From Streptomyces griseus (GTDB lineage Bacteria > Actinomycetota > Actinomycetes > Streptomycetales > Streptomycetaceae): DNA of 33,771 nucleotides. The stretch's first letter is position 1. The number at the start of each line of letters is the position of its first letter. The stretch covers positions 1 through 33,771 of the forward strand of contig MUNB01000170.1 in assembly GCA_002154345.1 (NCBI GenBank), written 5' to 3'. The position numbers and the translations under genes are program-made. Below, piece by piece: positions 2,854 to 23,798 of the stretch. The notes below the pieces were generated by a model. The model saw only the letters and a list, made by a program, of their open reading frames with translations, did no database searches and was not told the DNA's origin.

Positions 2854-3471
2854 TCAGCCGACGCCCCGCAGCAGTCGCTCCAGGCTACCCAGCAGTTTCA
2901 GCGCGTCCTCGCGCCGCGCACCCTCCAGCGCGCCCCCGGCGGACACCGCGCGCTGCTCGGCCTCGCGCACCCGCTCCGGCGTGAGCACCCGCAGGGCGGC
3001 GGCGGCCTGCCGGGCGAACATCGCGAGCAGATCCAGCTCCCGGACGCCCGACCGGGCCTGCGGGGACGGATCTAGCACCTCCAGGACGCCGAGGATCCGG
3101 GCGTCGCTGATGAGCGGGGCCGCCATCAGGGCGTTCGGCACATACGCGGTCGACTCCGCCAGCGAACGGTCGAAGGACGGATCGGCGCTCAGGTCGTCCA
3201 CCACCATCGGCTCGCCGGAGGTCGCCACCCACCCGGCGATCCCGCGCCCGGCCGGGAACCGGCGGCCCACGAGGAACTCCTCGCCCTGCCCGGACACGGC
3301 CTGGAAGACCAGCTCGTCCGCCTCCTCGTCGAGCAGGAAGACCGAACTGGCCTCGGCCCCGAAGATGGCGCGGGCCACGTCGACGACCGACTGGAGCAGC
3401 TCGCTGCGCGGCGCGTCGGCGACCGTGGCGGTGGCGGAGAAGGAGGTGGCGGAATCAGTTCTCGGAGTCAT
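2854..3471 (-). CDS. GAF-domain protein, last gene of the radical SAM operon
   Basis: A 205-aa protein dominated by one GAF domain (about residues 20-165), with characteristic segments AEASSVFLLDEEADELVF, GRGIAGWVATSGEPMVVDDL and LMAAPLISDARILGVLEVLD. GAF domains bind small ligands or sense redox state. No output domain such as a kinase, HTH or phosphatase is visible, so it probably acts through a partner. The ATG at 3471 has an AGGAG site 9 nt upstream and overlaps the end of the protease gene by 17 bp, which implies translational coupling. A longer reading from 3522 is possible but lacks a good ribosome site. Its presence in the operon suggests signalling together with the cyclase/ATPase gene; that is inference. 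Confidence 0.85.
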   Translation of the reverse strand: MTPRTDSATSFSATATVADAPRSELLQSVVDVARAIFGAEASSVFLLDEEADELVFQAVSGQGEEFLVGRRFPAGRGIAGWVATSGEPMVVDDLSADPSFDRSLAESTAYVPNALMAAPLISDARILGVLEVLDPSPQARSGVRELDLLAMFARQAAAALRVLTPERVREAEQRAVSAGGALEGARREDALKLLGSLERLLRGVG

Positions 3472-4384
3472 CACGGATATCTCCTGCCGGAGTGGAAGAA
3501 GGACGCGGTGCGGGGCGCACATTGGCCGCGGACAGATAGAGGGCGTTCTTGAGCTGGAAGGCCGTCATCCGCGGATGCGCGGACAGGACGCGGGCGCAGA
3601 GCCCGGCGACGTACGGCGTGGCGAAGCTGTTCCCCGTGGTGCGGATCGTCCGGCCGCCCAGCCACGGCACGGTCACGTTCTGGCCCGGGCCGAAGAACTC
3701 CACCGGGGGATCCGGGTTGTACAGATGCAGTTCGGGATCGTCCTCCTGGTGGCTGCCCACCGAGATCACCGAGGCGAACCGCCAGGGGAAGCTCTCCACC
3801 GGGGTGTTGTGGGCCGAGGCGACGATCACCGTACGGGCGAAGTAGGCGCTGTCGGCCAGGCTGTGCAGCTCCTGCGCGAACCGGGTACGGGTCGTCGACA
3901 GACTGAGGTTGACCACGTCGAAGCGCTGCTCCACCGCCCAGCGCAGCCCGGCCATGAGGACGTCGCCGGTGCCGGAGAACCGCTCCCCGAGCACCCGCAC
4001 ACTGTGGATCTCGCACTCCGGGGCGGTCCGGCGGACGATGCCCGCGCACGCGGTGCCGTGGCCGCAGGTGTCCCCGGTGGTCGTCGGCTCGACCGCGATC
4101 TCGCCGCTCTCCCCGTCCTTGACGACCACCCAGGAACCGGCCAGCGGGCCGATCAGCGGATGGTCCCGCTCCACACCCGAGTCCACCACGCAGACGCGTA
4201 CGCCGCGGCCGGTGGCGGGCCCGGTGGGGCGGCCGAGCGGGGGTCCGGCGTCCGCGAGCACCGGTACGTCGTCGGGGCCGCGCCCGCGCAGACTCCAGGT
4301 CAGGCCCTGCCCCGGGGCCGTACGCGCCCGGGGCCGTACCGATTCCGCCTGTGCCTGCGCCGGTGCCGGTTCCGTGGTCGTCAT
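3455..4384 (-). CDS. S8 subtilisin-like serine peptidase, apparently cytosolic
   Basis: A 309-aa subtilisin-family protease. The catalytic triad is visible: Asp68 in CVVDSGVERDHP, His109 in CGHGTACAG and Ser253 in GNSFATPYVAG. Asn193 in ASAHNTP is the probable oxyanion residue. There is no signal peptide, no prodomain of usual size and no membrane anchor, so the enzyme is expected to stay in the cytosol or leave by another route. It lies 3 bp downstream of the cyclase/ATPase gene with its own GAGAGGAG site, in the operon of a radical SAM enzyme and a candidate precursor. A leader peptidase role is therefore plausible for this peptide or for the neighbouring lanthipeptides. Regulatory proteolysis is an alternative. 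Confidence 0.9.
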   Translation of the reverse strand: MTTTEPAPAQAQAESVRPRARTAPGQGLTWSLRGRGPDDVPVLADAGPPLGRPTGPATGRGVRVCVVDSGVERDHPLIGPLAGSWVVVKDGESGEIAVEPTTTGDTCGHGTACAGIVRRTAPECEIHSVRVLGERFSGTGDVLMAGLRWAVEQRFDVVNLSLSTTRTRFAQELHSLADSAYFARTVIVASAHNTPVESFPWRFASVISVGSHQEDDPELHLYNPDPPVEFFGPGQNVTVPWLGGRTIRTTGNSFATPYVAGLCARVLSAHPRMTAFQLKNALYLSAANVRPAPRPSSTPAGDIRDDSEN

Positions 4385-4387
4385 CGG

Positions 4388-7300
4388 TCAGCTCCTCTCC
4401 CTCGTCGTGGCCATGGCCAGAGGCGGGTGCGCGAGGAACCCGGAGACCCGGCGCACCCCCGGCAGATGCCCCTTGCCCGTGAAGTGCGCCCCGGCCGACC
4501 GGGCCGAGGCCCCGGCCTCCGGCCACCGGCCCAGGGCGGCGAGCGTGTGCGCCCGGTCCAGCTCGGCCGTCGCCTGCACCAGCGGTGAATCGGTGAGCAG
4601 CGAGGCCCGGACCGCCCGGTCCGCGTGCCCGGCCGCCTCCTCGGGGGCGGACCGGGCCGCCAGCCGGGCCCGCAGCCCCGCCAGATCCACCGCGTCCGCC
4701 CGGCTCAGCCCCGAGGTGTCGCCGACGCCCGCCAGCCGGGCGGCGGCCAGGTCCTCGCGGCCCTCGTCCAGCTCCAGGCGGGCCGCGTCCAGCGCCACCG
4801 CCGTCCGCATCCCCGCCGCCCCCGTGCGCCGGGCCGCCGCGTCCGCCCGGCCCAGCAGCTCCAGCGCGGCGGCGCTCCGGCCGGACAGCGCCTCCACCGT
4901 CGCCCGGAACACCGGCAGGAAGACCTCCGCCTCCGCGAACCCCAGCTTCCCGGCCAGCCGTTCCGCCTCGGCCAGGCAGCCCCGCGCCTCCTCGGTCCGG
5001 CCCTGGAGCGCGTACAGCACCGCCAGCGGGCAGTTGAGGGTGATCCGGACCGTGGGCCGGCCCGCACCGTGCGCCGCCAGCAGCGTCCGGCAGCGGACCA
5101 CCGCGGCGGGCACCGGAACCGGCCCGCGCCACAGCGAGATGCCGATCGCGCCGAGCGCCCCGGCCCGCTCCGGCTCCGCACCGGCCAGCACGGCGTGCTC
5201 CAGCGCCCGCGCCTGGTCCCGCTCCGCCTCCTCGTGCCGCCCGGACCGCTGGAACTGCTGGGCGAGCCGCAGATGCGCGCGGGCCCGGCCGGTCGAGTCG
5301 CCGGCCGCCTCGAAGACCGGCAGTACGGTACGGGCCACGGCGGCGGGGCCGGGCGCGGCGGCCGGATCCAGCACCGCGAGCGCGAGCCGGGCGTGCGCCG
5401 CCTCCACCGCGTCGGCCCCCGAGTCCCGTACCCGGCGCAGCAGTTCGGCCCCTTCGCCGGTGCGGCCCAGCGCGACGCGGACCTCGCCGAGCCGCCGCGC
5501 CGCCGCCGGATCGCCGGGGCACAGGTCCACCGCGCGTTCCAGCAGCCCGTGCGCCCAGTGCAGGTCGGACCGGGCGGCGGCCTGCGCCCCGGCCCGGCCC
5601 AGCGCGGCGGCGGCCCGGTCGCGCAGCCGCCGGGCCGCGTCGTCCAGCAGACCCAGCTCGGCGCGGTAGCGGTAGGCGCGCTCCAGATGGCCGCCCACCG
5701 CACCGTCGCCGGCGCGCAGCACGCTGGGCAGCTCCGCCGCCCAGGCATGGCGGTCCGCCTTGGCCCGCTTGGACAGCGAGGCGTACGCGACCTCGTGGAC
5801 CAGCCCGCTGCTGAACCGGTACGCCGCCTCCTCCCGGCCGCCCGGCGGCCCCGACTCCACCAACCGGCGGCGGCCCAGCACCGCCAGCGCCTCCTCGACG
5901 CGCCGCCGGTGTTCGGGGCCGGCCGCGCCCGTGAGCGGACCGGGGCCGTGGCCCTCCCCGGCCTGTACGGAGAGCTCCAGCCGGACCAGCTCCGGTGCGG
6001 TGAACTCCCGGCCGATCACGGCGGCCAGGTCCACCACCCCGCGCTCCGCCCGGGCCAGCGCCCCGATGCGGGCGCCGAGGAGGGCCTGGAGCGTGGGCGG
6101 CAGTTCCTCGCCGGGGGCCGGGCCGCCGCCGGGGCGGGAAGCGGTCGCCGGGTCCTCCCGGTCGCCGACCAGGAGCTGTTCCAGGTAGAGCGGATTGCCC
6201 CCGGCCCGTGCCAGGACCCGGTCGTCCACCGGGGCAGGACCGCCGTCCGCACCGGCGAGACCGGCGGCGAGCCGGGCCGCTTCCTCGCGGGGGAGGCCGG
6301 TGAGCTGGAGGTGGCCCGCACCGGCCGGGGGTTCGCCGTCCTCGCCCGGTCCGTCCGGCCGCCCGGCGCAGAGCACCAGCACGCCCGCGCACCCCGAGCC
6401 GTCCGTCAGCCGGTGCACCGTGCGGACCAGCAGCGGGGCCGCCGCGTGCCAGTCGTCCAGCACCAGCACGACCGGGCGGATACGGGCGGCCCGTTCCAGG
6501 ACCGCCGTCAGGGCCGCGCACATGTCCTCGAAGGGCGCGTTCGGCGTGCCGTCGCGCAGCAGGCCCCCGGAGAGCAGGGCCATCGCGTCGTCGACCGCCA
6601 GCCCGTCGACCGCCGGCCCGTCGGCTCCGCCCTGCGCCCTGTCCACTGCCGGATCCACCGCCGGACCCACCGGAGGAACCGTCGGCCGACCCGCCGACCG
6701 ACCTGCCTGAGGGCCTGCCGACTGACCCGCCGGGGGACCGACCAGTGAACGCACCGCGTCGGCCAGCGCCGCGAGGGTGCCGTGGTCCCCGTAACTGCGG
6801 CACCGCCCCGCCCCGTACACCAGCGCGCCGGACGCGGACCGCCCCGCCAGCCACTCCCGTACCAGCCGGGTCTTGCCGATGCCCGCCTCCCCGGTGACCC
6901 GCAGCAGCCCGGCGCCACCGCCGTCGACGGCCCGCTCCAGGGCGGCGTCCAGCGCCTGCCGCTCGGCGTCGCGGCCGACGAAGGGGACGTCGAAGCGGCG
7001 CAGCAGCTCGGGGTCGTCCGCGCCCAGCGCGAGCAGCCGGTAGGCCTCCACGCTGTCCCGCTTGCCCTTCAGCCGCAGTGGCCCGGTGGGCTCGGCGCGC
7101 ACCGTCGGCCCGGCGGCGAGCAGCGTCCCCGGGCCGATCAGGATCTCGCCCCGGCCCGCGTTCTGCTCCAGCCGGGCGGCGATGTTGACGGTCTCCCCGG
7201 AGACCAGGGCCTGCCGGGCGGTCGCGTCCGAACCCGCCACCACCTGACCGGTGTTGACGCCGACGCGGGTGGCCAGCTCGATGCCGAGGGTGGCGGTCAG

Positions 7301-7744
7301 CTCCTCGTTCAGCCGGGCCAGCGCCCGGCGCATCCCGAGCGCCGCCGCCAGCGCCCGGCGGGCGTCGTCGTCACGGACCACCGGCACGCCGAACACCGCC
7401 ATCACCGCGTCCCCGATGAACTTCTCCGGAGTGCCGCCCCGCGCCACGATCTCCGCGCTCATCGCCTCGAAGTACCGCAGGGTCACCGTCCGCAGCGTCT
7501 CCGGATCGAGCACCCCGGACAGCGCGGTGGACCCGACGAGATCGCAGAACAGCACGGTCACCGGCTTGCGTTCGTCACCGGCCGGGGCGACGGCGGAAGC
7601 GGTCGCGGCGGCAGCCGGCGGGCCGGCGGTGTCCGTGGCGCCCGCGGTGGTCGCGGTGGACGCGGCGGTCGCGCACGGTGTTCCGCAGGAGGAACAGAAA
7701 CGGGCCGTCGGCGGCAGATCCTGCCGGCACGCGAGGCAGTTCAT
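4388..7744 (-). CDS. Class III cyclase domain / AAA-type ATPase / helical-repeat regulator
   Basis: A 1118-aa three-part protein. A zinc ribbon at the N-terminus uses Cys3, Cys6, Cys17 and Cys20. A class III nucleotidyl cyclase domain (about 58-230) keeps the metal-binding Asp68 (VLFCDLVGST) and Asp112 (EKFIGDAVMAVFG), with Lys108 in the usual base-recognition place and NIAARLE as the transition-state segment. A STAND/AAA ATPase follows, with Walker A GEAGIGKTR (Lys291) and Walker B VLVLDDW. The rest is alpha-helical, TPR-like. A low-complexity Gly/Ala/Pro/Val linker sits around residues 335-385. Such proteins are common in actinomycetes as large signal-responsive ATPases. Here it sits between the candidate precursor and the protease, so it may regulate or power maturation. 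AAGGA precedes the ATG. Confidence 0.88.
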   Translation of the reverse strand: MNCLACRQDLPPTARFCSSCGTPCATAASTATTAGATDTAGPPAAAATASAVAPAGDERKPVTVLFCDLVGSTALSGVLDPETLRTVTLRYFEAMSAEIVARGGTPEKFIGDAVMAVFGVPVVRDDDARRALAAALGMRRALARLNEELTATLGIELATRVGVNTGQVVAGSDATARQALVSGETVNIAARLEQNAGRGEILIGPGTLLAAGPTVRAEPTGPLRLKGKRDSVEAYRLLALGADDPELLRRFDVPFVGRDAERQALDAALERAVDGGGAGLLRVTGEAGIGKTRLVREWLAGRSASGALVYGAGRCRSYGDHGTLAALADAVRSLVGPPAGQSAGPQAGRSAGRPTVPPVGPAVDPAVDRAQGGADGPAVDGLAVDDAMALLSGGLLRDGTPNAPFEDMCAALTAVLERAARIRPVVLVLDDWHAAAPLLVRTVHRLTDGSGCAGVLVLCAGRPDGPGEDGEPPAGAGHLQLTGLPREEAARLAAGLAGADGGPAPVDDRVLARAGGNPLYLEQLLVGDREDPATASRPGGGPAPGEELPPTLQALLGARIGALARAERGVVDLAAVIGREFTAPELVRLELSVQAGEGHGPGPLTGAAGPEHRRRVEEALAVLGRRRLVESGPPGGREEAAYRFSSGLVHEVAYASLSKRAKADRHAWAAELPSVLRAGDGAVGGHLERAYRYRAELGLLDDAARRLRDRAAAALGRAGAQAAARSDLHWAHGLLERAVDLCPGDPAAARRLGEVRVALGRTGEGAELLRRVRDSGADAVEAAHARLALAVLDPAAAPGPAAVARTVLPVFEAAGDSTGRARAHLRLAQQFQRSGRHEEAERDQARALEHAVLAGAEPERAGALGAIGISLWRGPVPVPAAVVRCRTLLAAHGAGRPTVRITLNCPLAVLYALQGRTEEARGCLAEAERLAGKLGFAEAEVFLPVFRATVEALSGRSAAALELLGRADAAARRTGAAGMRTAVALDAARLELDEGREDLAAARLAGVGDTSGLSRADAVDLAGLRARLAARSAPEEAAGHADRAVRASLLTDSPLVQATAELDRAHTLAALGRWPEAGASARSAGAHFTGKGHLPGVRRVSGFLAHPPLAMATTRERS

Positions 7745-7772
7745 GGCGGGTCCTTCTCTCCGATGTCGGGCG

Positions 7773-7820: not shown

Positions 7821-7836
7821 GCTGATCGGTCGCCGG

Positions 7837-8055
7837 TCAGAACAGCGCGCCGCCGGCGATCTCGCCGTGCGCCTGTACCTCGGGACCGACGGCGTCCAGC
7901 CGGCTCTTCACATCGAGCAGCAGCGCCAGTTCCTCCGGCGTCAGCCCGCTCAGCACCTCGCGCTGCTCCTCGGTGAGGAGGTCCACGGGGAAGCCCGCTT
8001 CGTACAACGCGTCGGGCAGCACGGTCCGTTCGCCGTTCTCGGGTGGTCCGGTCAT
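7837..8055 (-). CDS. 72-aa cysteine-free small protein, candidate RiPP precursor
   Basis: A 72-aa acidic protein starting MTGPPENGERTVLPDALYEA. It has a central amphipathic region (LLTEEQREVLSGLTPEELAL, then DVKSRLDA) and a short Gly-rich tail ending GEIAGGALF. It overlaps the preceding gene by ATGA, has a GGGAG ribosome site, and is followed by a strong hairpin. Size, position beside a radical SAM gene and the leader-like helix plus short tail all suggest a RiPP precursor. It resembles what I recall being annotated as 'aroma-sacti cluster domain' proteins, but I could not check that. It contains no cysteine, so thioether (sactipeptide) chemistry on it is impossible. Carbon-carbon, epimerisation or backbone modification would be needed. 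A chaperone or carrier role is the alternative. Confidence 0.75.
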   Translation of the reverse strand: MTGPPENGERTVLPDALYEAGFPVDLLTEEQREVLSGLTPEELALLLDVKSRLDAVGPEVQAHGEIAGGALF

Positions 8056-8816
8056 GGTGTGACTCCCATCGGTGGGACAGGTCCGGCTCCCCGCAGCGAC
8101 GGCGCCGGTGCGGAGCGCCCGAGCCGGACGAACAGCCGGGTGAGCGCGTCGAGGGAGTGCAGCGCGCTGACCGCCACGGCGGCTTCCCGCTCCCGGCCGA
8201 GCGGCAGCCGGTCCAGCAGCGCGTACAGCTCGTCCAGGTGCTCCGTGTCGAGCACCGAGTGCTCCCGTACGGTCCGCAGCGCGGCGGCGGGCAGTCCGGT
8301 CAGCCGGGCGATGCGGCCGGTGAGGCCGGGGGCGGGCGCGTAGCCCTCCAGTACGGCGATGTAGCCGAGCAGGGCGACCGGGTGATGGTGCTCGATCCAG
8401 TAGTACTGGGACCCGACGAGCGAGGCGGTCAGCGGCGAGGGCAGCCGGCCGAGCGCGTCCTCGGGCGTGCCGCCCGCCGCGCGGAGGTCGTCCAGCAGCC
8501 AGTCGTCGTGGCCCGCCTCCTCCCGGATGTGCTCCTCCAGATACGCGGCCAGCGGCGCCGCCAACAGGTCGCCGGAAGCATCCAGTTGGCGGGCTCGGCG
8601 CAGGGCCAGCTCCATCAGCGGGACGGAGGCGCGGATGACGGCGTGCATGGTGCACAGATACGTCCGGTAGCGCGGCAACAGCCCTTCGGCGCGCCACATG
8701 TGGTGCGTCGCGTCCCGGAACTCCGGCTCCAGCAGCAGGAGTTTGACCCGCAGACGTGCGGAGGCCCCGGTACGCCCGAGTGATGCGCCCGCGGAGGTGG
8801 GGGCGGGCGCGCTCAT
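8052..8816 (-). CDS. Haem-oxygenase-like iron-containing redox enzyme
   Basis: A 254-aa, mostly helical protein with the profile of the iron-containing redox/haem-oxygenase-like diiron oxidase (TenA/PqqC-like) superfamily. Candidate metal ligands are Glu94/Glu95 and Glu99/Glu100 with His103 in YLEEHIREEAGHDDW, His143-145 in WIEHHHP, Glu157, and His186, Asp190 and His193 in REHSVLDTEH. Characterised members oxidise amino-acid-derived substrates, including N-oxygenation and C-C cleavage. The ATG at 8816 overlaps the radical SAM stop by ATGA and has a strong GGAGGAGG site, which rules out the much longer in-frame extension upstream. The tight coupling suggests it modifies the same peptide as the radical SAM enzyme. 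The family call is from pattern only. Confidence 0.72.
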   Translation of the reverse strand: MSAPAPTSAGASLGRTGASARLRVKLLLLEPEFRDATHHMWRAEGLLPRYRTYLCTMHAVIRASVPLMELALRRARQLDASGDLLAAPLAAYLEEHIREEAGHDDWLLDDLRAAGGTPEDALGRLPSPLTASLVGSQYYWIEHHHPVALLGYIAVLEGYAPAPGLTGRIARLTGLPAAALRTVREHSVLDTEHLDELYALLDRLPLGREREAAVAVSALHSLDALTRLFVRLGRSAPAPSLRGAGPVPPMGVTP

Positions 8817-9967
8817 CGGACCTCCTCCGCTTCGCTCTCCGGCAGGGCCGGCCCGCCCGCGACGACCAGCGGTGCGTACGCCGCGCAGCCGTGGCGGCGC
8901 ACGACGCCCTGCGCGCCCTCGCGGGACCCGCGTACCGCCGCCGTCAGGTCCAGCAGCGCACCGGCCGCACCGCCCGCCACCGCCTGGGCCCCGGCCATCG
9001 CCGCCTCGTCGCCGCCCAGCGCCCGGCAGCCGTCGCAGTAGGAGCCCGCCGGGGGGCCGGAGCCGTACCGGGCGGCCAGATGCGTGGGCCCGACCGTGCG
9101 GAGCATCCGCAGCACCGGGGACTCCAGCGCCCGGCGGCGTACGGTCGCCCAGTCGTCGGCGCCGATGTGCCCGAGGTCCAGATGGGCCGGGACGGGCCGC
9201 CGGTCGACGGTGTCCTGGTTGCAGCAGGCCAGCACGCGGCCGTCGAAGGCGACCACGGGCCAGGCGGCCATCGAGCACGGCGACGCCGCCGCCGGGTCCG
9301 GGCCGCTGCGGGCGGGCCGGGCCCAGGAGGCGGCCCGGCCGAACGGCCGCACCTCGTTGACCAGGCACGGGACCTGCCCGCCGAACTCCTCCTCCACCGC
9401 CCGGGTGAGGCCGGCGAGATACGGATCGGCCGCGCCGGTCCCGGTCAGGTGCAGGCTCACGGCCACGCCCTCCGCCCGGATCCGGTGCAGGGCGCGGAAC
9501 ACGTCGGCGCGCGGGACCTCGCGTTCGTGGTGGACGTCGAGGGAGGCCGAGAAATGGTCGACCGAGCGGATCGCGCGCAGGATCGCGGGAGGAATCGCCG
9601 CGCCGCGCCGACCGCCGCTCAGCCCGCCGAACCGGCCCCCGGCGCGGGCGCTTCCGCTCCGGGCGAAGAACATGCCGCTGAGCAGTGCGGTACGGGACCC
9701 GGCGCGGCGTGCCAGCGTGCTCAGCCGCTCCGCGAGCGCGGGCAGCAGCAGCGGCTCCCCGCCGGTGAGCATGACGACGTCGGGCCGGTTCTCCTCGGTG
9801 AACGAGCCGACGAACCGCTCCAGTTGACCGCCGTCCGGCTCCTGTCGGGTGAACAGGTCCGATCCGGTCGAGCAGTGCGCGCAGCGCAACGGGCAGCGCC
9901 GGGTGAGGCCGATGAGCAGACCGGCGGCCGGGAAGGGCCGCCGTGCGACGAGTTCGGCGAGTTCCAT
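8813..9967 (-). CDS. Radical SAM enzyme with SPASM-like auxiliary cluster domain
   Basis: A 384-aa radical SAM protein. The CxxxCxxC cluster motif is Cys25, Cys29 and Cys32 (LTRRCPLRCAHC), and the SAM-binding GGEP motif is at 69-72. The C-terminal third carries further cysteines in SPASM-like arrangement: Cys231, Cys248/Cys249 (RVLACCNQD) and Cys311/Cys314 (YCDGC), plus a Cys in RRHGCAAY. SPASM enzymes typically modify ribosomal peptides, by thioether, C-C crosslink, epimerisation or decarboxylation. A Gly/Arg-rich insert sits around residues 105-125. The start is set by AAGGAGG 9 nt upstream. It is first in the leftward operon, so the 21-bp promoter element at 10047-10067 should control it. 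The substrate is most simply the 72-aa protein two genes on, but the lanthipeptide precursors across the shared promoter are also candidates. Confidence 0.9.
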   Translation of the reverse strand: MELAELVARRPFPAAGLLIGLTRRCPLRCAHCSTGSDLFTRQEPDGGQLERFVGSFTEENRPDVVMLTGGEPLLLPALAERLSTLARRAGSRTALLSGMFFARSGSARAGGRFGGLSGGRRGAAIPPAILRAIRSVDHFSASLDVHHEREVPRADVFRALHRIRAEGVAVSLHLTGTGAADPYLAGLTRAVEEEFGGQVPCLVNEVRPFGRAASWARPARSGPDPAAASPCSMAAWPVVAFDGRVLACCNQDTVDRRPVPAHLDLGHIGADDWATVRRRALESPVLRMLRTVGPTHLAARYGSGPPAGSYCDGCRALGGDEAAMAGAQAVAGGAAGALLDLTAAVRGSREGAQGVVRRHGCAAYAPLVVAGGPALPESEAEEVR

Positions 9968-10046
9968 GGTGGGCCGCCTCCTTCGGGGCCGGTGCGCGTC
10001 GGGCGCGTACCCAGGCTGTGCGGAACCGGTTCGCGGACGGTCCGGA

Positions 10047-10067: not shown

Positions 10068-10161
10068 GCCCAGGTCGGGGCGGATGTCCGGACCGCCGCC
10101 GGAGGCTCGGTAGGCGGTCCCGGCCCGCTCCGGGCGGGCCCGAACTGGCCCGATACCGACG

Positions 10162-10182
10162 CCATACCGCCGCCGAAGCGAT
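10162..10182 (+). promoter_or_regulatory. 21-bp regulatory element facing the precursor/LanKC operon
   Basis: This is the plus-strand copy of the element at 10047-10067, differing at a single central base (G for T). Its ATACCG core (10164-10169) is preceded exactly 11 bp upstream by another ATACCG (10153-10158). SARP activators are known to bind short direct repeats spaced by 11 or 22 bp, so the spacing fits. It lies 119 bp before the first precursor start and 17 bp before a TAACTT -10 candidate. Confidence 0.6.
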
Positions 10183-10301
10183 CACCAGGCCCGGCTTCCT
10201 AACTTTCTCGGCAACGGCAGGCACCGGCCCGCCGCACCGGACACCGAGGGGCGTTCCCCACGGGCCCCGGGTCCCGCAGTGACGAGTGGATGGAGACCAC
10301 C

Positions 10302-10463
10302 ATGTCCGAGAACACGAAGCCCGCCGCCGACGACGCCAACGAGAGCCCCGAGGTCGAGGCGCACTCCGTCCTGGACCTCCAGGAGACCGCCGTCCACGGC
10401 GACCGCGACATCATCGCGCCCCCCGGCAACTGCATCAGCGTGCTCAGCGTCGTCGAGAACTGA
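10302..10463 (+). CDS. Class III lanthipeptide-like precursor A1 (53 aa)
   Basis: A 53-aa peptide, too short for routine ORF calls. The leader MSENTKPAADDANESPEVEA is acidic and is followed by HSVLDLQET. VLDLQ fits the hydrophobic-x-x-LQ leader motif recognised by class III LanKC enzymes. The probable core lies at the C-terminus, PPGNCISVLSVVEN, with one Cys (44) and Ser at 46 and 49. A GGAGA site precedes the ATG, and codon use is typical high-GC3 coding. It is followed by a paralogue, an MFS exporter and LanKC in the same direction. The odd point is that Cys comes before both Ser residues, the reverse of the usual Ser-x-x-Ser-x(2-5)-Cys labionin pattern. The mature structure is therefore uncertain. 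Confidence 0.85.
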   Translation: MSENTKPAADDANESPEVEAHSVLDLQETAVHGDRDIIAPPGNCISVLSVVEN

Positions 10464-10552
10464 CCCCGCACACCGGACGCCCAAGGCCCGTCCGTGGCCA
10501 GGGAGTTCCGGTCGTTCCGCAGTGACCAAGTGACGAGTGGATGGAGACGACC

Positions 10553-10711
10553 ATGTCCGAGAACACCAAGCCGGCCGGCGACGAGACCAACGAGACCCCC
10601 GAGGTCGAGGCGCACTCCGTCCTGGACCTCCAGGAGACGTCCGTCCAGGGCGGCGACACGACCGACGGCAACTGCATCAGCGTGCTGAGCGTCGTCGAAT
10701 CGCAGCGCTGA
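10553..10711 (+). CDS. Class III lanthipeptide-like precursor A2 (52 aa)
   Basis: A 52-aa paralogue of the peptide encoded just upstream. The leader (MSENTKPAGDETNETPEVEA) and HSVLDLQET are almost identical. The linker is different and one residue shorter (SVQGGDTTD), and the core again reads GNCISVLSVVE but ends SQR rather than N. Cys41 precedes Ser43 and Ser46, and an additional Ser50 lies near the end. The same GGAGAC site precedes the ATG. Conservation of both leader and core after duplication implies that both are substrates of the same enzyme. The two products could act as a pair or be simple dosage copies; sequence alone cannot decide. Confidence 0.85.
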   Translation: MSENTKPAGDETNETPEVEAHSVLDLQETSVQGGDTTDGNCISVLSVVESQR

Positions 10712-17027: not shown

Positions 17028-17067
17028 GCCCGGGTGCACAGGTTCCGCCCGCCCCTGACGCGAGGCC

Positions 17068-20001
17068 TCAGACCGCCTCGCCGGCGCACTCGGCCGCGAA
17101 CTCGCACAGCGCCGCCCGGTCCGCGCGCCCCGTCTTGCTGAGCAGGCTGGCCATGTGCTTCTCCACCGTGCGCGGCGAGATGGACAGCCGCCGGGCGATC
17201 TGCTGGTTCCCGGGCCGCTCCGGCAGCAGCACGAACACCTCGTACTCGCGCGGCGTCACCCCGCTGGTCCGCAGCGGCGACGGGATCCGGTCCCAGCCGC
17301 CCCGGTGCTGGCCCACACTCGCCCCGGCCTGCCGCAGCGCCGCCCGGCACGCGGAGGCGACCGGCTGCACCCCGGCCCCGTAGAAGTACTCCTCGGCGGT
17401 CCGCAGCCACGCCACCGGCTCGCCCCACCCGTCCGCGCGGGCCGCGTCCGCGACCAGCCGCAGCCCCAGGTGGTGGGCGACCGGGAAGGGCGCGGAACAC
17501 GCCCCGAAGGACGCCATCAGCCGGGCCGCCCCGGCCGGGTCACCCGCCCGCCCCAGCAGCACCGCGTCGGCCAGCTCCAGGAACTGCCGGTTCCAGGCGA
17601 GGCAGCCGCCCGGAGCCGCCCGCGCCTCCTCCAGCTCCGCCCGGTCCGCCTCGCCCGCCAGGACCCGCAGCAGCGGGCGCAGCCCGTACCGCCCGCTCAG
17701 GTAGTAGTAGCTCGGATGGTCCAACTCCCAGGCCAGCGCCTCGTCCAGACCGGCCGCCGCCCGCTCCCGGTCCTCCTCCAGCAGCGCCCCGAACGCCCGG
17801 CACAGCCCCGACCGGAGCGGCACCAGCAGCGACTGCTCGCCCCCGGCCCGCCGGAACGCGGCCAGCGCCCGGTCCATCTCCCGCCGCCGCCCCCGGTGCG
17901 CGGCCATCGTCGCCCCGGCCAGCAGCAGATAGCGGTGGGCCGACAGATCGCCGACCCGGGCGCTGGCCTCCGCCGAGCGGTCGACGATCTCCTGCGCCTC
18001 CTCCCACCGGGCGCACAGCACCGCGTTCATGGCGAGCAGCCCGTCGACCGTACGGGTCAGGAGCAGCGCGCCCAGTTCGGTGGCGGCCGCCCGGGCGGAG
18101 AGCAGCCGGGAGGCGTCCCCGGTGCGCATGAACGCGTTGGCGCCGAGCCGCACCAGCGCCTCCACCCGCCAGACCGGCAGGGCGTGTTCGGTGGAGATCG
18201 ACAGCATCCGCTCCAGTGCGGCGTCCGCGGCGTCGAAGCCCTCCTCGCGCCGCAGCAGCGCCAGCAACTGCCAGGCCTGGCAGGCGACCACGGGCAGCCC
18301 TTCGGCCTCGGCGGTCTCCGCCGCCTCCCGCACGGCCTGCTCGGCCTCCGCCGGGTCCGGGGGCTTCTGCCCGGGGCCGGGCTCATGGCCGGGAAGCAGG
18401 GACAGATAGCCGTCGACCACCGCGAGCGCGGCCCGGCGGCCGGGCGGCGGCGACGCGCCGAGCAGGGCCCGGGCCGCCTCCACCTGGAGCGCCGCGTCGG
18501 CGGTGCGCTCCGCCATGACCGCCGCCCAGGCCAGCTCGACATGGGTTTGGCCGCGCCGGGCGGCGGCCTCGGAACGCGCCGGAACCGGCGGCAGCGCGTC
18601 CGCCAGCGCCAGCGCGCCGTCCAGATCGCCGCCCTCGGCCCGGGCCACCGCCAACGACTCGGCGACGGCGGCCCGGTCGCCCTCGGCGGCCAGCGGGTGC
18701 GCCCGCTCCAGCAGCACCACGGCCGAGCCGTGCGCCCCCGAAGCGAGCATCCGTCTGCCCGCCTCCGCGAACTGGCGGGCCGCCCCCGTCCGGTTGCCCG
18801 CGGCCAGCTGCAACGACGCCACGAGCTGCCGCCCGTCCTCGTCCAGCGGCTCCCCGGAGTGCTCGATGGCCCCGGCGGCGCGGCGGGCCAGCGAGGCGCG
18901 TTCGGCCGGGGCCAGCGAGGAGATCAGAGCCTCGGCGGTGAGCGAGTGCCGGAAGGTGTAGCGGTCGGGGGCCGCGCCGTCCGGGGCGATGACACCGGCC
19001 TCCACCGCGGACCGCAGATGGGTGAACAGGGCCCGGTCCTCGAAACCGGTGACGGTCTGGAGCACGGTCACCGAGAACTGGCTGCCCAGAGTGGCCGACG
19101 CCAGTAAGAGGTCCCGCACCGGTTCGTCCAGCCGCTCCAGCCTGCGCGCCCAGCTGCGGACGATGTCCGAGGGGACCGCGGCGTCGGGCTGTTCCGCCGC
19201 CTCCCACCCGTCGTCGGTCCGCCGGAGCCGGCCGGTGTCCAGCAGGTCGGCCAACAGCACTTCCAGCAGGTACGGGTTGCCCGCGGCGCGTTCGGCCAGC
19301 CGCCGGTGCACCGCCTCGGGTATCTCCTGGGGCCGCGCCTCCAGACAGGCGCCGGTCAGCGCCCGCACCTGGGCGTCGGGCAGCGGGCCCAGCTCCCGCA
19401 CGGAGGCGGTGTGGCGGCGCTCGGCGGAGCGTACGAGGTCCAGTGCGGCGCCCGGTTCCGGGCGCAGGGTGCCCAGGAACAGGATCGGCAGATCGGCGAG
19501 GTTGTCGATGACGTACTCGACGACCGCGACGGTCTCCGTGTCGCAGTCGTGCAGATCCTCCAGCAGGATCGCGCAGCCCGCCTCCCGGCCCAGCACGGAC
19601 AGCAGCCGCAGCAGCGCCTCGGCCAGCTCGACGACCGTCTCCGGATAGCCCGGCGACCCGCCCTTGCGCCACTCCGGGACCAGCCGGGCCAGCGCCGGAT
19701 GGTACGGCGCGAGCTCCGGATCGGTCGGGGTGCCCGCCGCCCGGAACCGCGAGGCCAGCGCCTCCGCGAGCGGGCGGAACGGGACGACGAGCCCGGTCGA
19801 GGTGGCCCGGCCGCGCAGCACCGGCATGCCCGCCCCGTAGGCCCGGTAGGCGCATTCGCCCACCAGCCGGGACTTTCCGATACCGGCTTCCCCGACGAAG
19901 AACAGCGCGCGCCCCGAACGCCGTTGTACGGCGTCCAGGGCGCTGCTCAGCAGTCCGATCTGCTCGTCCCGCCCGACGATGACCGGCGAAGTGGCTCGCA
20001 T
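17068..20001 (-). CDS. LAL-type LuxR regulator with one TTA codon
   Basis: A 977-aa large ATP-binding regulator of the LuxR family. The N-terminal AAA ATPase has Walker A FVGEAGIGKSRLVG (about 36-49) and Walker B-like CAILLEDLHD. A long helical, TPR-like middle follows. The C-terminal LuxR HTH (about 915-965) reads VTPREYEVFVLL, NQQIARRLSISPRTVEKHMA. Leu299 is encoded by TTA (19105-19107). In Streptomyces this rare codon needs the bldA tRNA, which ties expression to development. An in-frame TAA lies 9 nt upstream of the ATG and there is no Shine-Dalgarno, but a -10-like TAATGT sits 6 nt before the start, so the message may be leaderless. It probably activates this cluster. Confidence 0.92.
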   Translation of the reverse strand: MRATSPVIVGRDEQIGLLSSALDAVQRRSGRALFFVGEAGIGKSRLVGECAYRAYGAGMPVLRGRATSTGLVVPFRPLAEALASRFRAAGTPTDPELAPYHPALARLVPEWRKGGSPGYPETVVELAEALLRLLSVLGREAGCAILLEDLHDCDTETVAVVEYVIDNLADLPILFLGTLRPEPGAALDLVRSAERRHTASVRELGPLPDAQVRALTGACLEARPQEIPEAVHRRLAERAAGNPYLLEVLLADLLDTGRLRRTDDGWEAAEQPDAAVPSDIVRSWARRLERLDEPVRDLLLASATLGSQFSVTVLQTVTGFEDRALFTHLRSAVEAGVIAPDGAAPDRYTFRHSLTAEALISSLAPAERASLARRAAGAIEHSGEPLDEDGRQLVASLQLAAGNRTGAARQFAEAGRRMLASGAHGSAVVLLERAHPLAAEGDRAAVAESLAVARAEGGDLDGALALADALPPVPARSEAAARRGQTHVELAWAAVMAERTADAALQVEAARALLGASPPPGRRAALAVVDGYLSLLPGHEPGPGQKPPDPAEAEQAVREAAETAEAEGLPVVACQAWQLLALLRREEGFDAADAALERMLSISTEHALPVWRVEALVRLGANAFMRTGDASRLLSARAAATELGALLLTRTVDGLLAMNAVLCARWEEAQEIVDRSAEASARVGDLSAHRYLLLAGATMAAHRGRRREMDRALAAFRRAGGEQSLLVPLRSGLCRAFGALLEEDRERAAAGLDEALAWELDHPSYYYLSGRYGLRPLLRVLAGEADRAELEEARAAPGGCLAWNRQFLELADAVLLGRAGDPAGAARLMASFGACSAPFPVAHHLGLRLVADAARADGWGEPVAWLRTAEEYFYGAGVQPVASACRAALRQAGASVGQHRGGWDRIPSPLRTSGVTPREYEVFVLLPERPGNQQIARRLSISPRTVEKHMASLLSKTGRADRAALCEFAAECAGEAV

Positions 20002-20015
20002 GGCCGCACATTACT

Positions 20016-20059
20016 GGAGTGACAACTCCCACGGCAGCGGACCAATTCGGCTCAATTGG
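20016..20059 (-). promoter_or_regulatory. Palindromes and leaderless promoter candidate of the LAL gene
   Basis: Two inverted repeats lie directly upstream of the LAL start: GGAGT-GACA-ACTCC (20016-20029) and CCAATT-CGGCTC-AATTGG (20042-20059). The latter is strikingly AT-rich for this DNA. On the minus strand TAATGT (20013-20008) followed by six bases and ATG has the geometry of a leaderless promoter. A weak terminator of the upstream peptide gene is the alternative reading of the larger palindrome. Confidence 0.45.
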
Positions 20060-20080
20060 CGTCGAGTTGGCCGGATCCGG

Positions 20081-20278
20081 TCACCACGGGGCCGTCATGG
20101 TGGTCCAGGGGAGGTCGTGGCTGTAGCCGCTCTCGCCCTCCGAGGCGCTGAGGAGTCTGCTGCGCGCACCGAGGCCTCCGGTGGAGCCCAAGGAGATCTG
20201 CCCGGCCGGGTGTTCGGGCGAGCCCTCGTGCGCGATGTCGCCGGACGCCTGCAGGGCCGATTCGCGGAACTGCTTCAT
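20081..20278 (-). CDS. 65-aa cysteine-free candidate precursor for LanM
   Basis: A 65-aa peptide encoded 97 bp downstream of lanM on the same strand. It starts MKQFRESALQASGDIAHEGS, has a Gly-rich middle (GQISLGSTGGLGARSRLLSA) and ends SEGESGYSHDLPWTTMTAPW. Codon use is strongly high-GC3, and AAAGGA lies about 11 nt before the ATG, so it is very probably a real gene. Its size, place beside lanM and Ser/Thr-rich tail fit a class II precursor, but it has no cysteine at all, so no lanthionine can form within it. LanM might only dehydrate it, the Dha/Dhb might react with another nucleophile, or the true LanM substrate lies elsewhere. I do not recognise the family. Confidence 0.75.
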   Translation of the reverse strand: MKQFRESALQASGDIAHEGSPEHPAGQISLGSTGGLGARSRLLSASEGESGYSHDLPWTTMTAPW

Positions 20279-20320
20279 CTCTGCCTCATCCTTTGTTGGT
20301 CGGTGCGGTGATCAGCAACG

Positions 20321-20360
20321 GTGCGTGGTCATCGGGAACGGTGCGTGGTCATCGGGAACG
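20321..20360. repeat. 20-bp tandem repeat between lanM and the 65-aa gene
   Basis: The unit GTGCGTGGTCATCGGGAACG occurs twice without gap (20321-20340, 20341-20360). It is preceded by AACG and followed by GTGGTCGGGG, so partial units extend both sides. It occupies much of the 97-bp spacer between the lanM stop and the small peptide gene, where it could serve as a regulator site or affect mRNA folding. Confidence 0.8.
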
Positions 20361-20375
20361 GTGGTCGGGGGTGGG

Positions 20376-23300
20376 TCAGGGCGCCCGGGAAGGGCGCAGG
20401 AGCAGGGCGGAGCCGATCCGGTCGGGGAACCCGGCCCGGAGCAGCCCGTGCCCGATCCCGGAGAGCCCGGTGAGCAGCCCCGGGTGCGGCACCCGGCCGG
20501 GCGTCCCGCACTGCGGTCCGGCCCGGTCCGCGGCGGCCAGCAGCGTCCCGGCCCGGCGTACCCACGCGGGCCGTGCGGCGGGCAGCGCCCGGTGGCCGAG
20601 GAGTTCGAGCAGCCCCGACTCGCCGTGGCACAGGCTGTCGTCGGCGAGCGGACCGATGTCCGCCAGTTCGCCGGAGCGCGCCGCCAGCCAGCCGGCCAGC
20701 TCCGGGTCCGCCAGCGCGTCGTGGCTGTCCGCGACCGCCAGCGCGATCCCGGCCGCCCCGTCGCACCAGGCGGGCCCGGCGGCCGGATCCGTGGGTTTCG
20801 CCGCCGCGGCTTCCGTCGGGGCGGCGGCTTCGCCGTCCGCTCCGGCAAGGGCTCCGGGGTTCGCCAGGGCGGTGGTACCGCCGGCCGCTCCGGCGGTGGC
20901 GCCGCCAAGGGCTCCGCCGGTGGCCCCGGGAACGTTCCGGCCTGCCGCCCCGGCTTCCGCGAGGGCCGTCGCCCGGCGCAACGCCCGCAGCCCGGCGTTC
21001 CGGTGCCGTACGTCGCCCCCGGCCCCGGCGAACCGCAGCAGCGCCCAGCCGATCCCCGCCGCCCCGTCGGCGAAGCCCGCGGAGTCGGGGAGCGGGGCGG
21101 CGGCGATCCGCTCGGCGCAGCGCTCGGCGCCACGCCAGGCCTCCGGGCGGCCGGTGACGCGGTACACCGCGAGCAGCGAGACCAGCCCGCCCGCCACCCC
21201 GCCGCGCACCCCGTACCCGTCCTCGGCCATGCTCGCCGCGCAGCTCAGCCGGATGGCCGGACCCGCGAGCTCCAGGATCTCCCGGTCGCCCAGCAGCGTG
21301 CCCACCTCGGTCAGCGCGTACGCGATGCCGCCGAGGCCCGCGAAGGCGCCGGAGCCCAGGGGGCCGAGCTCGTCGGCCCGCCCGTGCAGCGCGTCCAGCA
21401 GCCCCGGGACCGGGGCGAGCGCCTCACGGGCCGCCTCCGCGTACCGGGCGGCGCCGGTGAGCGCCGCCAGCTGGGCGAGGAAGAGTGCGGGGCCGGTGTA
21501 GCCGCCCGCGAGGTCCGCCGCCATCGGCGTCAGCCGCCAGTAGCGTTCGCCGAGCAGTTCGAGGCCGATCCAGTTGGTGCGGCCCTCGTGCCGGTAGGCG
21601 AGCGAGACGAGCTGGTCGCCCACCGACCGTGCGGCGGACAGCAGTTGCTCGGGCTCCGGCGCGGTCGCCGCGCTCGGGGCCCGGCCGCCCGGAACCGCCC
21701 GGTGCGGCGGCTCGGGCGAGGTGCTCACCATGGCGGCCCGGATGATCCGTTCCTGGTCCTGCCGGTCCACGGTGTCCATCGCGCGCACCTTCGCCTCGAC
21801 GCGCGCCAGCCCGCTGAGGAGGGCCGGATCGCGCGGGGCCGCGGCAGGGCGGGGCCGGGCCGGGGCGGTGTCGTGCGAGGAGAGGTCGGGGGCCGGCCCC
21901 GCGACCGTACGGCCGGTGCCGCTCCACAGCTCCGTGCCGCCCGGCCGGGTGCAGAACACCGGCACATCACCGGACCACAGCTCCGCGATCTCCTCGTCCT
22001 CCACCCCGGGCAGCGCGGGCACGCCCAGGAGCGGGGTGCGCAGCAGCGACAGCACCTGGTGCCGTTCGGCGGCGTCCCGCATCAGATCGGGGTGGGTCGA
22101 CTCGTCCAGCAGCGTCGTGTACGTCCAGGTCGGGCGCGGCACGACCCGTACCTCGTCGGCGCCGAAGAGCCACAACAGCCCTCCCTCGCCCAGGAGTTCG
22201 TTCCGATGCTCGCTGATCGCGTTGTACCCGGCGCGGAATCCGTCGCAGAGGGCGTCGGTGTACGCGGAGGGGTCGGCCGCCACGCCGCCCAGCCGGGGCC
22301 GGTTGGCGGACTCGGTGAACCGGCCCGCCCGCCGCACCAGCCGCATCCGGTCGGTTCCGGGATCCGCCCAGTCGGCGGTCTCGATCGGCGACGAGGCGGC
22401 CCGGCCGCCGCCGATGGCGGACATGTCGAGCGCGGACGTGTCCCCGACGAGCAACTGCGGGAGCAGGCCCACCCGGTGGACCGAGTCGTGCAGGGCGCGG
22501 GCGGCCGGATCGGTGGAACCGGCGGGCCCCAGCGGCGGGTGGAACAGGGTCTCCACGTCGACCAGGACCGGGTGCGGGCCGCAGGCGATCAGGTTCTCGT
22601 GGTGCAGATCCGTACCGTCCAGCGCGTGCAGCAGGGCCAGCAGGGCGCCCTGCCGCCGGTAGAACCGCCGGGTCTCCGTCACCGAGGCACAGGGCCGCTC
22701 CTCGACGAACTCGGCCCAGCCGTACTCTCCCCGGTCCAGCACCCGCAGCACCCGCAGCGCGGGAGCGCCCGGCAGCGAACCGAACCACTCGGCAAGGGTG
22801 TTGAAGTGCCGGTGCGCCGCGAGCGGGCGCGGCTTGTAGACCAGCCGGGTGCCGTCGGCGAACCGCAGCAGCATCACCGACCGGCCTCCGCGATGACTGT
22901 CGCCCGCCCCGGCCTCGACGCCGGTGAGCACCCCGGGTCCCGCGCTCCCGCCGAGCGCCCCGTCCGGAGCGCCGGCCCGGTGGCCGAGCACCCCGGCAGG
23001 GGCGAGCAGGTGCCGGTCGGCGGCGAGCCGTACGACCATCTCCGCGAACGCGTCGCCCGCGTTCAGGCAGGCCGTGGCGAGGAGGCGGGCCAGCACGGGG
23101 TAGCCGGTGACGAGTTCGGCGAGCCCGTCACGCCGGGCGGTCAGCCGCACGAAGTCCCGGAAGCGCTCCTCGGTCCCCGCCCCGCTCAACCGGCCCAGCC
23201 GCCGCGCCTCGTGCAGCTCCGTCACGAGGGTGCGCGCCGCGATCCGGCAGAGCCGACGCGTCAACTGCCGCCGGAAGTCGCCGAGTACGGTCGAGGAACC

Positions 23301-23798
23301 CTCCGGCAGAGGACCGTCCGCCACGGGACCGCCCGCCACGGGGCCATCCGTCACGGGGCCATCCGCCACGGGACCGCCCACCACGGGGCGATCCGCCACG
23401 GGACCATCCGCCGAGGGACTGCCCACCGCAGGACCGTCCTCCTCCGCGGGCGCCTCCTCGGCGAGCGTGCCGCGCAGCCGCTCCGCCGCCGCCTCGACGA
23501 ACGGCGCGAGGACCGGCCCGAAACCGCTGAGCCCGGGGTACGCACGGTCGGCGACCACCACGTCGTGCGGGGCCGACGCCACGGCCTCCCGGGCGAAGAC
23601 CGCCCAGCGGGGTTCGCCGGAGGGCCTGCCGCCGACGACACCGGGAAGCCACCACGGCTCTCCGGCCGCACCCTCGAACAGGGCGGTGGCGGGGGAGGAG
23701 ACGGCGGAGGCGGCCGGGTCATCGCCGTACGCGACAGCGGCGGCAGCGGGGGCGAGGCGACGGCTCGTCCCTCTGTCGATCAGATCCTTCTCCGCCAC
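20376..23798 (-). CDS. lanM: Class II lanthionine synthetase LanM
   Basis: A 1140-aa bifunctional enzyme. The N-terminal dehydratase domain (DUF4135-like) keeps the catalytic set: Lys322 in LVYKPRPL, Asp397, His399 and Asn402 in TDLHHENL, and Asp414 in LVDVETLF. The C-terminal LanC cyclase has zinc ligands Cys1012 (WCDG) and Cys1057-His1058 (CHGE). All active-site residues I can check are present, so it should both phosphorylate/eliminate and cyclise. The GTG at 23798 is chosen because GGGAGG lies 9 nt upstream; a longer reading from 23918 would run into the promoter. A run of pentapeptide repeats (about residues 121-163) interrupts the N-terminal region. The 65-aa cysteine-free peptide follows it, and a LAL regulator comes next. 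Confidence 0.92.
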   Translation of the reverse strand: MAEKDLIDRGTSRRLAPAAAAVAYGDDPAASAVSSPATALFEGAAGEPWWLPGVVGGRPSGEPRWAVFAREAVASAPHDVVVADRAYPGLSGFGPVLAPFVEAAAERLRGTLAEEAPAEEDGPAVGSPSADGPVADRPVVGGPVADGPVTDGPVAGGPVADGPLPEGSSTVLGDFRRQLTRRLCRIAARTLVTELHEARRLGRLSGAGTEERFRDFVRLTARRDGLAELVTGYPVLARLLATACLNAGDAFAEMVVRLAADRHLLAPAGVLGHRAGAPDGALGGSAGPGVLTGVEAGAGDSHRGGRSVMLLRFADGTRLVYKPRPLAAHRHFNTLAEWFGSLPGAPALRVLRVLDRGEYGWAEFVEERPCASVTETRRFYRRQGALLALLHALDGTDLHHENLIACGPHPVLVDVETLFHPPLGPAGSTDPAARALHDSVHRVGLLPQLLVGDTSALDMSAIGGGRAASSPIETADWADPGTDRMRLVRRAGRFTESANRPRLGGVAADPSAYTDALCDGFRAGYNAISEHRNELLGEGGLLWLFGADEVRVVPRPTWTYTTLLDESTHPDLMRDAAERHQVLSLLRTPLLGVPALPGVEDEEIAELWSGDVPVFCTRPGGTELWSGTGRTVAGPAPDLSSHDTAPARPRPAAAPRDPALLSGLARVEAKVRAMDTVDRQDQERIIRAAMVSTSPEPPHRAVPGGRAPSAATAPEPEQLLSAARSVGDQLVSLAYRHEGRTNWIGLELLGERYWRLTPMAADLAGGYTGPALFLAQLAALTGAARYAEAAREALAPVPGLLDALHGRADELGPLGSGAFAGLGGIAYALTEVGTLLGDREILELAGPAIRLSCAASMAEDGYGVRGGVAGGLVSLLAVYRVTGRPEAWRGAERCAERIAAAPLPDSAGFADGAAGIGWALLRFAGAGGDVRHRNAGLRALRRATALAEAGAAGRNVPGATGGALGGATAGAAGGTTALANPGALAGADGEAAAPTEAAAAKPTDPAAGPAWCDGAAGIALAVADSHDALADPELAGWLAARSGELADIGPLADDSLCHGESGLLELLGHRALPAARPAWVRRAGTLLAAADRAGPQCGTPGRVPHPGLLTGLSGIGHGLLRAGFPDRIGSALLLRPSRAP
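23311..23439 (-). repeat. 15-bp tandem repeats encoding GPVAD-type pentapeptides in LanM
   Basis: Eight 15-bp units plus a partial one, each near GGACCGTCCGCCACG, run from 23311 to 23439 in frame within lanM. They encode GPVAD, RPVVG, GPVAD, GPVTD, GPVAG, GPVAD and GPLPE-like pentapeptides. This Pro/Gly-rich segment is a disordered linker inside the N-terminal part of the dehydratase and is likely to vary in copy number between strains. Confidence 0.85.

Follow-up and report, generated by a model that had tools for sequence, protein, structure and literature searches.

The stretch of Streptomyces griseus DNA analysed here, called the window, is one whole contig (C80; 33,771 nucleotides) of a 7.8-Mb genome, in which positions 2854–23918 hold genes for ribosomally synthesized and post-translationally modified peptides (RiPPs). 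Unit A, on the reverse strand, consists of a radical S-adenosyl methionine (SAM) enzyme, a haem-oxygenase-like enzyme, a 72-residue peptide, a cyclase/ATPase, an S8 protease, and a GAF protein; unit B, on the forward strand, of two class III precursors, an MFS exporter, and the synthetase LanKC. A SARP regulator and unit C, which consists of the synthetase LanM, a 65-residue peptide, and a LAL regulator, follow on the reverse strand. A first-pass annotation of the same DNA had named the parts of three RiPP modules, and family searches and reading of the open reading frames (ORFs) recovered all of them at about the same places; it had overlooked the S8 protease, the GAF protein, the MFS exporter, and a short motif, EVxAH, common to the 72-residue peptide, both class III precursors, and the SARP. 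This motif, and the part that unit A may play in maturing the precursors that carry it, are the subject of this report. The features of unit A, unit B, and the SARP are the following.

2854–3471, reverse strand: GAF-domain protein (PF01590, 2.6e-21), the last gene of unit A, overlapping the S8 gene
3455–4384, reverse strand: S8 (subtilisin-like) peptidase (PF00082, 1.1e-25), the candidate EVxAH protease
4388–7744, reverse strand: nucleotide-cyclase-like/AAA ATPase protein (PF00211, PF13191)
7837–8055, reverse strand: unit A precursor of 72 residues with an aroma-sacti leader domain (NF045560, 1.9e-23)
8052–8816, reverse strand: haem-oxygenase-like diiron oxidase (HDO; PF14518, 1.7e-11)
8813–9967, reverse strand: radical SAM peptide maturase (PF04055, 4.1e-11) that has additional conserved cysteines
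10153–10169, forward strand: ATACCG-N5-ATACCG direct repeat without mismatches, a putative SARP site ahead of the LanKC precursors
10290–10463, forward strand (start 10290 or 10302): class III precursor 1, with the tag EVEAHS at 10350 and then VLDLQ; no family hit in profile searches
10541–10711, forward strand: class III precursor 2, with the tag EVEAHS at 10601; no family hit at 0.001
10994–12265, forward strand (start 10952 also possible): MFS exporter (PF07690, 5.8e-32)
12277–14961, forward strand: LanKC class III synthetase (NF038151, 1.9e-260)
14948–16861, reverse strand: SARP regulator, BTAD and NB-ARC with a short tail (PF03704, 9.8e-40)

The genes of unit A overlap or almost touch, except for 92 nucleotides between the 72-residue peptide and the cyclase. 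Of 150 genomes from the same genus, 21 (the genome of the window among them) have its radical SAM enzyme, and the neighbourhoods of the 20 others form the comparison set. Gene order is identical in all 20 of these relatives, with all six genes visible in 18; in the other two (G115, G127) unit A is cut by the stretch fetched or by a contig end. One more genome, the highly fragmented G028 (1300 contigs), was counted as positive for unit A on the strength of orthologs of the S8 protease (74%) and the SARP (57%), its radical SAM enzyme not having been found. A second set was taken from named genomes, as the best 80 of 126 relatives, which form 32 clusters at 75% radical-SAM identity. Seventy-nine of these 80 loci come from Actinomycetota, including Kitasatospora, Streptacidiphilus, Actinacidiphila, Catenulispora, Actinospica, and Phytohabitans, and one from Mesorhizobium; those closest to the locus of the window belong to the Streptomyces griseus group. 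A cyclase match is present in 77 of the 80, an S8 match in 71, and a GAF match in 69, the remaining 11 being ten contig-end cuts and the Mesorhizobium locus (L253). Away from contig ends, genes of unit A are missing in that locus only.

What lies beside unit A varies. Unit B is found there in 11 of the 20 relatives, and other cassettes take its place elsewhere. Twelve of the 150 genomes have a LanKC ortholog at 74% or above, every one of them at a unit A locus. In four relatives (G004, G057, G041, G015) about 9 kb of other sequence lies between unit A and the SARP, and in two of these (G057, G015) the insert, as judged by eye, holds a 39-residue precursor, a glycosyltransferase-like ORF, a second radical SAM, an MFS protein, and a prolyl-oligopeptidase-like ORF. 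In three relatives (G108, G070, G095) the SARP that accompanies unit A is inverted, one (G003) has distant LanKC-like matches nearby, its LanM-LAL pair lying on another contig, and in one (G024) unit A is seen alone in its neighbourhood. The SARP and LAL together with the 65-residue peptide or LanM recur in 15 of the 20, the LanM match of G041 being on another contig. As the 72-residue peptide, the class III precursors, and the 65-residue peptide all recur at the same positions in relatives, these small ORFs are not chance readings.

Among 25 proteins of the window tested, EVxAH occurs only in the 72-residue peptide, both LanKC precursors, and the SARP. In the first of these it opens a nearly invariant ending, EVQAH-x-EIAGGALF, within the segment EVQAHGEIAGGALF (positions 7840–7881), and 19 of the 20 relatives end their A-peptide in EV(Q/R)AH-x-(E/D)(I/V)AGGALF; in G024, whose radical SAM enzyme is 45% identical, the ending is DVVAHSEWAGGVVW. 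Both LanKC precursors combine the tag with a VLDLQ leader and one cysteine each, and thus have an LDLQ-type leader and a Ser/Cys core; LDLQ is a class III leader motif. The motif is likewise present in the 39-residue precursors, in multicore precursors of G108 and G095, and in one precursor of G003. In three precursors of the named loci the tag is repeated in 6, 3, and 3 copies, positioned between the cores.

Beyond the A-peptide and the SARP, 92 tagged small ORFs were counted in the named set, in 67 of the 80 loci and 25 of the 32 clusters, as compared with 0–3 ORFs for each of seven permuted control motifs. In a simpler first control one permuted motif had scored high, as a reading inside the A-peptide itself. 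Thirteen tagged precursors of unit A loci served to build a profile, A1, which at a threshold of E up to 1e-4 matched in 21 of the 150 genomes, which are 20 of the 21 unit A genomes and G028. Counted in this way, precursors with an EVxAH leader are present in 21 of 22 unit A genomes and in none of the 128 others, where the weaker, uncounted matches begin at 0.006 (G144) and otherwise lie above 0.1. Some tagged precursors are not linked to unit A in their own genomes: those of G115 and G066 stand with a glycosyltransferase-like ORF, and that of G127 (E 0.03, accepted after reading) with a radical-SAM-like ORF and an MFS protein, by eye. At the first two of these loci (L175, L176) the part read showed no second radical SAM.

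The enzymes that accompany tagged ORFs differ widely. Family searches of the neighbours gave LanKC at one locus (L258), radical SAM enzymes with methyltransferases at three (L239, L232, L219), a radical SAM enzyme with an oligopeptidase-B-like protein at another (L221), and TfuA with a JmjC-like protein at L212, from Wenjunlia tyrosinilytica, where the tagged precursor ends in TYHYNYSVWPE; a further class of modification may be using the tag there. In the precursors of L237, L252, and L258 the order is reversed, with LxLQ first and (E/D)V-x-AHS shortly before the core. Whether EVxAH is a motif of class III precursors generally was considered: at 14 LanKC loci away from unit A, with flanks of about 1.5 kb or less covered, there was no tagged ORF.

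The SARP of the window, with its BTAD and an N-terminal DNA-binding domain (PF00486, 26.2 bits, just at the cut-off), carries the tag as EVTAHA inside 15095–15142. EVxAH near the C terminus is shared by 61 of 65 readable linked SARPs of the named loci, down to 41% identity (masked sequences at L200 and L209 being outside this count), and by 19 of the 23 clusters having a SARP; in the genus set it is found at 20 of 21 linked SARP loci, with L279 cut by a contig end. None of nine unlinked SARPs has EVxAH, and eight of the nine have RYRxHDL at that place.

SARPs bind repeats of an 11-bp period, and one such repeat stands ahead of the LanKC precursors. The repeat at 10153–10169 is the sole site in the window at up to 2 mismatches, a laxity at which 0.57 would be expected. 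Across the named loci, a score of 10 or more of 12 was obtained before 55 of 93 tagged ORFs and in 2 of 240 random stretches from the same loci; perfect repeats precede 35 of the 93 and occur in none of the 240. Many of these 93 ORFs are close relatives, and the signal comes mostly from precursors of the LxLQ type. Genome-wide, a perfect repeat is present in 12 of the 22 unit A genomes, each time at the position of a tagged precursor. The genome of the window has two perfect repeats; the second (C536:517–533, L335), ATACCGTCCGCATACCG, is identical in G115, G127, G126, and G066 and is perhaps another SARP target.

The catalytic residues of the unit A enzymes are strictly retained. In the S8 protein the active-site residues D68, H109, N193, and S253 (Asp, His, Asn, Ser) are invariant in 24 sequences, so that this is an S8 family member with an intact active site, as would be expected of an AmyP-like protease; it also matches the QhpE model at 3e-29, below that model's cut-off, and no signal peptide is apparent by eye. 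The AF2 model of the HDO (mean pLDDT 90.6) has the HDO fold, with 3dde, UndA, and CtCADD as top Foldseek matches, and its E75, H78, E132, H161, D165, and H168, a three-His/three-carboxylate set, are invariant in 25 sequences. These residues match E86, H89, E143, H172, D176, and H181 of MboA, with equal spacing except for the last. In the published account, the substrate of MboA is a tripeptide, of which the carboxylate binds the iron and the C-terminal residue is oxidised (PMC13185094). As the A-peptides end in Phe or Trp, action of the HDO is predicted there. In the radical SAM enzyme, C25, C29, and C32 and a further C231, C248, C249, C311, and C314 are invariant in 21 sequences; the SPASM label comes from these cysteines, Pfam having given the radical-SAM core only, and the nearest solved structures by sequence are YydG (1.6e-9) and PqqE (3e-6).

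The 72-residue peptide scores 82.4 bits against the aroma-sacti domain (NF045560, cut-off 30) and 27.6 bits against the StsA-related equivalog (NF045559), below that model's cut-off of 75. Neither it nor any of its 11 aligned relatives contains a cysteine, which led us to reject a sactipeptide identity, there being no cysteine for sulfur-to-alpha-carbon links. The 65-residue peptide is also cysteine-free, so that two of the three precursor types lack cysteine, as had been proposed.

Relatives of the A-peptide without the tag are informative as to which enzyme the tag may serve. A phylum search with NF045560 matched 5 of 396 genomes, own included, and none of 14 controls. Two distant aroma-sacti peptides (G408, G166) lack the tag, and neither genome has an S8 match anywhere at 1e-10. 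The peptide of the Mesorhizobium locus ends in AADTVGGFVW without EVxAH, and no S8, cyclase, or GAF match was obtained in its 21-kb locus. These three untagged relatives without an S8 match suggest that the tag is tied to the S8 protease and not to the radical SAM enzyme or the HDO, on the evidence of three lineages only. As an observation in its own right, the Mesorhizobium temperatum locus (L253, 9638–12782), with an untagged aroma-sacti-like peptide of VGGFVW ending, a radical SAM enzyme, an HDO, and a second radical-SAM-like ORF, looks like a smaller version of unit A outside the Actinomycetota.

Taken together, the sharing of the tag, its co-occurrence with unit A, and the exchange of cassettes at one position make it rather likely, in our judgement, that unit A serves RiPP cassettes with EVxAH-bearing precursors as a common unit of maturation and control, with the S8 protease cutting at the tag. 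Most likely, the protease would cut the peptide of unit A itself at EVxAH and free a short C-terminal [GSA][ED][IV]AGGALF, a core that would be modified by the radical SAM enzyme and the HDO, the latter probably acting at the C-terminal Phe or Trp as MboA does at a peptide C terminus. The same protease would also cut the precursors of the adjoining cassette, which is the LanKC cassette here and radical-SAM cassettes elsewhere, and the dedicated, tagged SARP would probably drive at least the LanKC-type precursors by way of the ATACCG direct repeats. The first two modules are thus probably linked by a shared tag, at which cleavage is presumed, and by a regulator.

A bolder form of this idea, which we regard as possible but would not bet on, makes EVxAH a common currency: the S8 protease, or a receptor for the tag in unit A, would act on precursors and SARP alike, the SARP would sense precursor processing, any tagged RiPP cassette could plug in, whether linked or in trans, and the A-peptide product would be the unit's own signal.

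Several observations weigh against a shared unit acting through the S8 protease. Profile A1 was built at unit A loci, so that its linked hits are partly circular, unlike its absence elsewhere and the unlinked copies, and the 80 named loci collapse to only 32 clusters. Thirteen of the 80 loci have no tagged small ORF under the filters of the script, which covered the flanks; two of them (L212, L236) are tagged through a GTG-start ORF and a third (L251, the same as G070) has a tag further out, and in the remaining ten no tagged ORF was seen. G024 has unit A, and no further tagged precursor was found in it. Four linked and readable SARPs (L238, L241, L246, L259) lack the exact motif. The repeat is weak in stretches upstream of non-LxLQ precursors (6 of 13 scoring 10 or more, one perfect), and of 22 genomes that lack unit A, 6 hold a perfect repeat somewhere. 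An oligopeptidase-like gene is part of some tagged cassettes, so that other proteases may act. Finally, at the named loci the cyclase and GAF genes track the tag as well as the S8 gene does; the one case that tends to set them apart is G408, where a cyclase-like ORF was recognised by eye and S8 gave no match.

On a rival view, EVxAH would not be cleaved but would serve for docking or modification by another part of unit A (the radical SAM enzyme and HDO, the cyclase/ATPase, or some other receptor), to which all tagged peptides and the SARP would bind. We consider this unlikely while allowing it real weight. In its favour, the other unit A genes accompany the tag nearly as faithfully as S8 does, and the SARP tag falls just before a conserved and perhaps folded C-terminal segment (the place of RYRxHDL in unlinked SARPs), an odd site for a cut. 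Against it, the tag recurs between the cores of multicore precursors, where processing sites are expected, and the Mesorhizobium locus pairs a radical SAM enzyme and an HDO with an untagged peptide, hence with no need of a tag there. A requirement of the radical SAM enzyme and HDO for EVxAH as a signal was rejected because of that same peptide.

The reading of unit A as a shared unit does not extend to unit C, the features of which, with an adjacent ORF, are these.

17068–20001, reverse strand: LAL regulator (AAA and LuxR; PF13191, PF00196) of the LanM cassette
20081–20278, reverse strand: cysteine-free peptide of 65 residues, the small ORF before LAL
20376–23918, reverse strand (ORF limits; start uncertain, perhaps 23798): LanM class II synthetase (TIGR03897, 3.4e-200; PF13575, LANC_like)
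23966–24481: ORF of 171 residues beside LanM, with no convincing family match and no match in the neighbourhoods of the 20 relatives

The motif scan found no EVxAH in the 65-residue peptide. A cysteine-free peptide next to LanM is unusual; cysteine for thioether rings is absent from this one, and some of its relatives have one. In each of the 25 LAL loci read (17 near and 8 distant; L093–L117) the position before LAL is taken by a small, mostly cysteine-free ORF, and LanM, peptide, and LAL look like a recurrent cassette. In G075 the same chromosomal site reads LysR-EamA-TIM, LAL, 65-residue peptide, LanM, LacI-GFO, without units A and B or the SARP. LanM-LAL pairs of 43–51% identity occur in nine more places (G003, G134, G071, a second in G100, G033, G092, G080, G113, G135); in seven of these genomes the unit A radical SAM was not found, and in G003 and G100 it lies elsewhere. 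Because it stands without unit A in G075 and similar LanM-LAL pairs occur elsewhere, unit C is an independent neighbour that shares a chromosomal spot. The first-pass annotation had offered a co-regulated set of peptides as one explanation and had treated the SARP, LAL, and cyclase as shared regulators. The tag, the tagged SARP, the SARP-type repeat, and the conserved linkage argue for co-regulation of the first two modules; the SARP and cyclase go with unit A, and LAL goes with LanM. The annotation had also reasoned that modules found separate and unlinked in related genomes, with independent expression, would mean coincidence, and for the third module this is seen in part.

The separability of the LanM cassette, and the absence of this LanKC ortholog beside unit A in 9 of the 20 neighbourhoods, would fit a chance neighbourhood in which three independent RiPP clusters share a hot spot and EVxAH is a leader feature without functional link. 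We hold this to be improbable in view of the motif controls and the genome-wide association of the tag, the replacement of the LanKC cassette by other tagged cassettes, and the presence of the tag in linked SARPs only. A single hybrid pathway, in which one precursor family would be modified in turn by the radical SAM enzyme, LanKC, and LanM, was the other original proposal and is rejected as highly improbable: all three modules are linked in 12 of the 150 genomes (own and 11 others), but each maturase has its own adjoining precursor, the core of the A-peptide is peculiar to it and nearly invariant, G075 has LanM, its peptide, and LAL without the other modules, and the cassettes adjoining unit A in other genomes are of quite different kinds.

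Read as a shared maturation and control unit, unit A suggests that a single protease tag and a single regulator can serve RiPP clusters belonging to different chemical classes, which would be exchanged as plug-in cassettes. If true, the shared tag would account for missing leader proteases, would make hidden tagged precursors findable by motif, and would give peptide engineering a compact, transferable cleavage tag in EVxAH. The conservation of the core also points to a short peptide product of the EIAGGALF type in many Streptomyces and related genera. To our knowledge, a regulator that bears the tag of the substrates would be a new control principle in the field.

How these units relate to known systems was addressed in open-licence PMC text. 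No cluster joining LanKC, LanM, and a radical SAM enzyme turned up in the literature search listing, the search on unclustered proteases gave no paper, dedicated searches on StsA and on haem-oxygenase-like RiPP enzymes led nowhere, and no relevant paper was found with the letters of the motif and core, which may be in print elsewhere. Among systems available for comparison, the StsA/StsC sactipeptide (NF045560, NF045559; PMC12710340) resembles unit A in the aroma-sacti domain of its peptide and the adjoining radical SAM enzyme. It differs in that the 72-residue peptide has no cysteine and in the HDO, S8 protease, and cyclase of unit A, among whose genes no discrete RRE protein was recognised. 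The mangotoxin HDO MboA (PMC13185094) shares six metal ligands with the HDO and has a peptide's C-terminal residue as its target; the likely substrate here is instead ribosomal, ends in Phe or Trp, and is paired with a radical SAM enzyme.

Class III and class II lanthipeptide clusters are represented at this locus by full-length synthetases over their curated cut-offs (LanKC, 866.8 bits against 575 for NF038151; LanM, 667 against 304 for TIGR03897) and by the LDLQ leader of the LanKC precursors. Unlike in those clusters, EVxAH precedes LDLQ in these precursors and the peptide associated with LanM has no cysteine. In the logic of the PQQ pathway, a peptide is combined with a radical SAM enzyme, an oxidase of haem-oxygenase fold, and a peptidase, and unit A likewise has a short conserved core, a radical SAM enzyme, an oxidase of that fold class, and a peptidase, although it has no Glu-Tyr core, and its tag, S8 family protease, and regulators differ.

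The nearest precedent is AmyP, the original work on which is reportedly that of Zhang et al. in 2022. PMC10885120 describes AmyP as an S8 protease that acts on class III leaders, and gives its motif as (T/S/A)EVE. Compared with that account, the S8 gene here lies inside a radical-SAM/HDO unit, and the motif is common to precursors of other cassettes, the unit's own peptide, and a regulator; shared with it are an S8 protease found with class III precursors and the resemblance of (T/S/A)EVE to the (P/A)EVEAH of the present locus.

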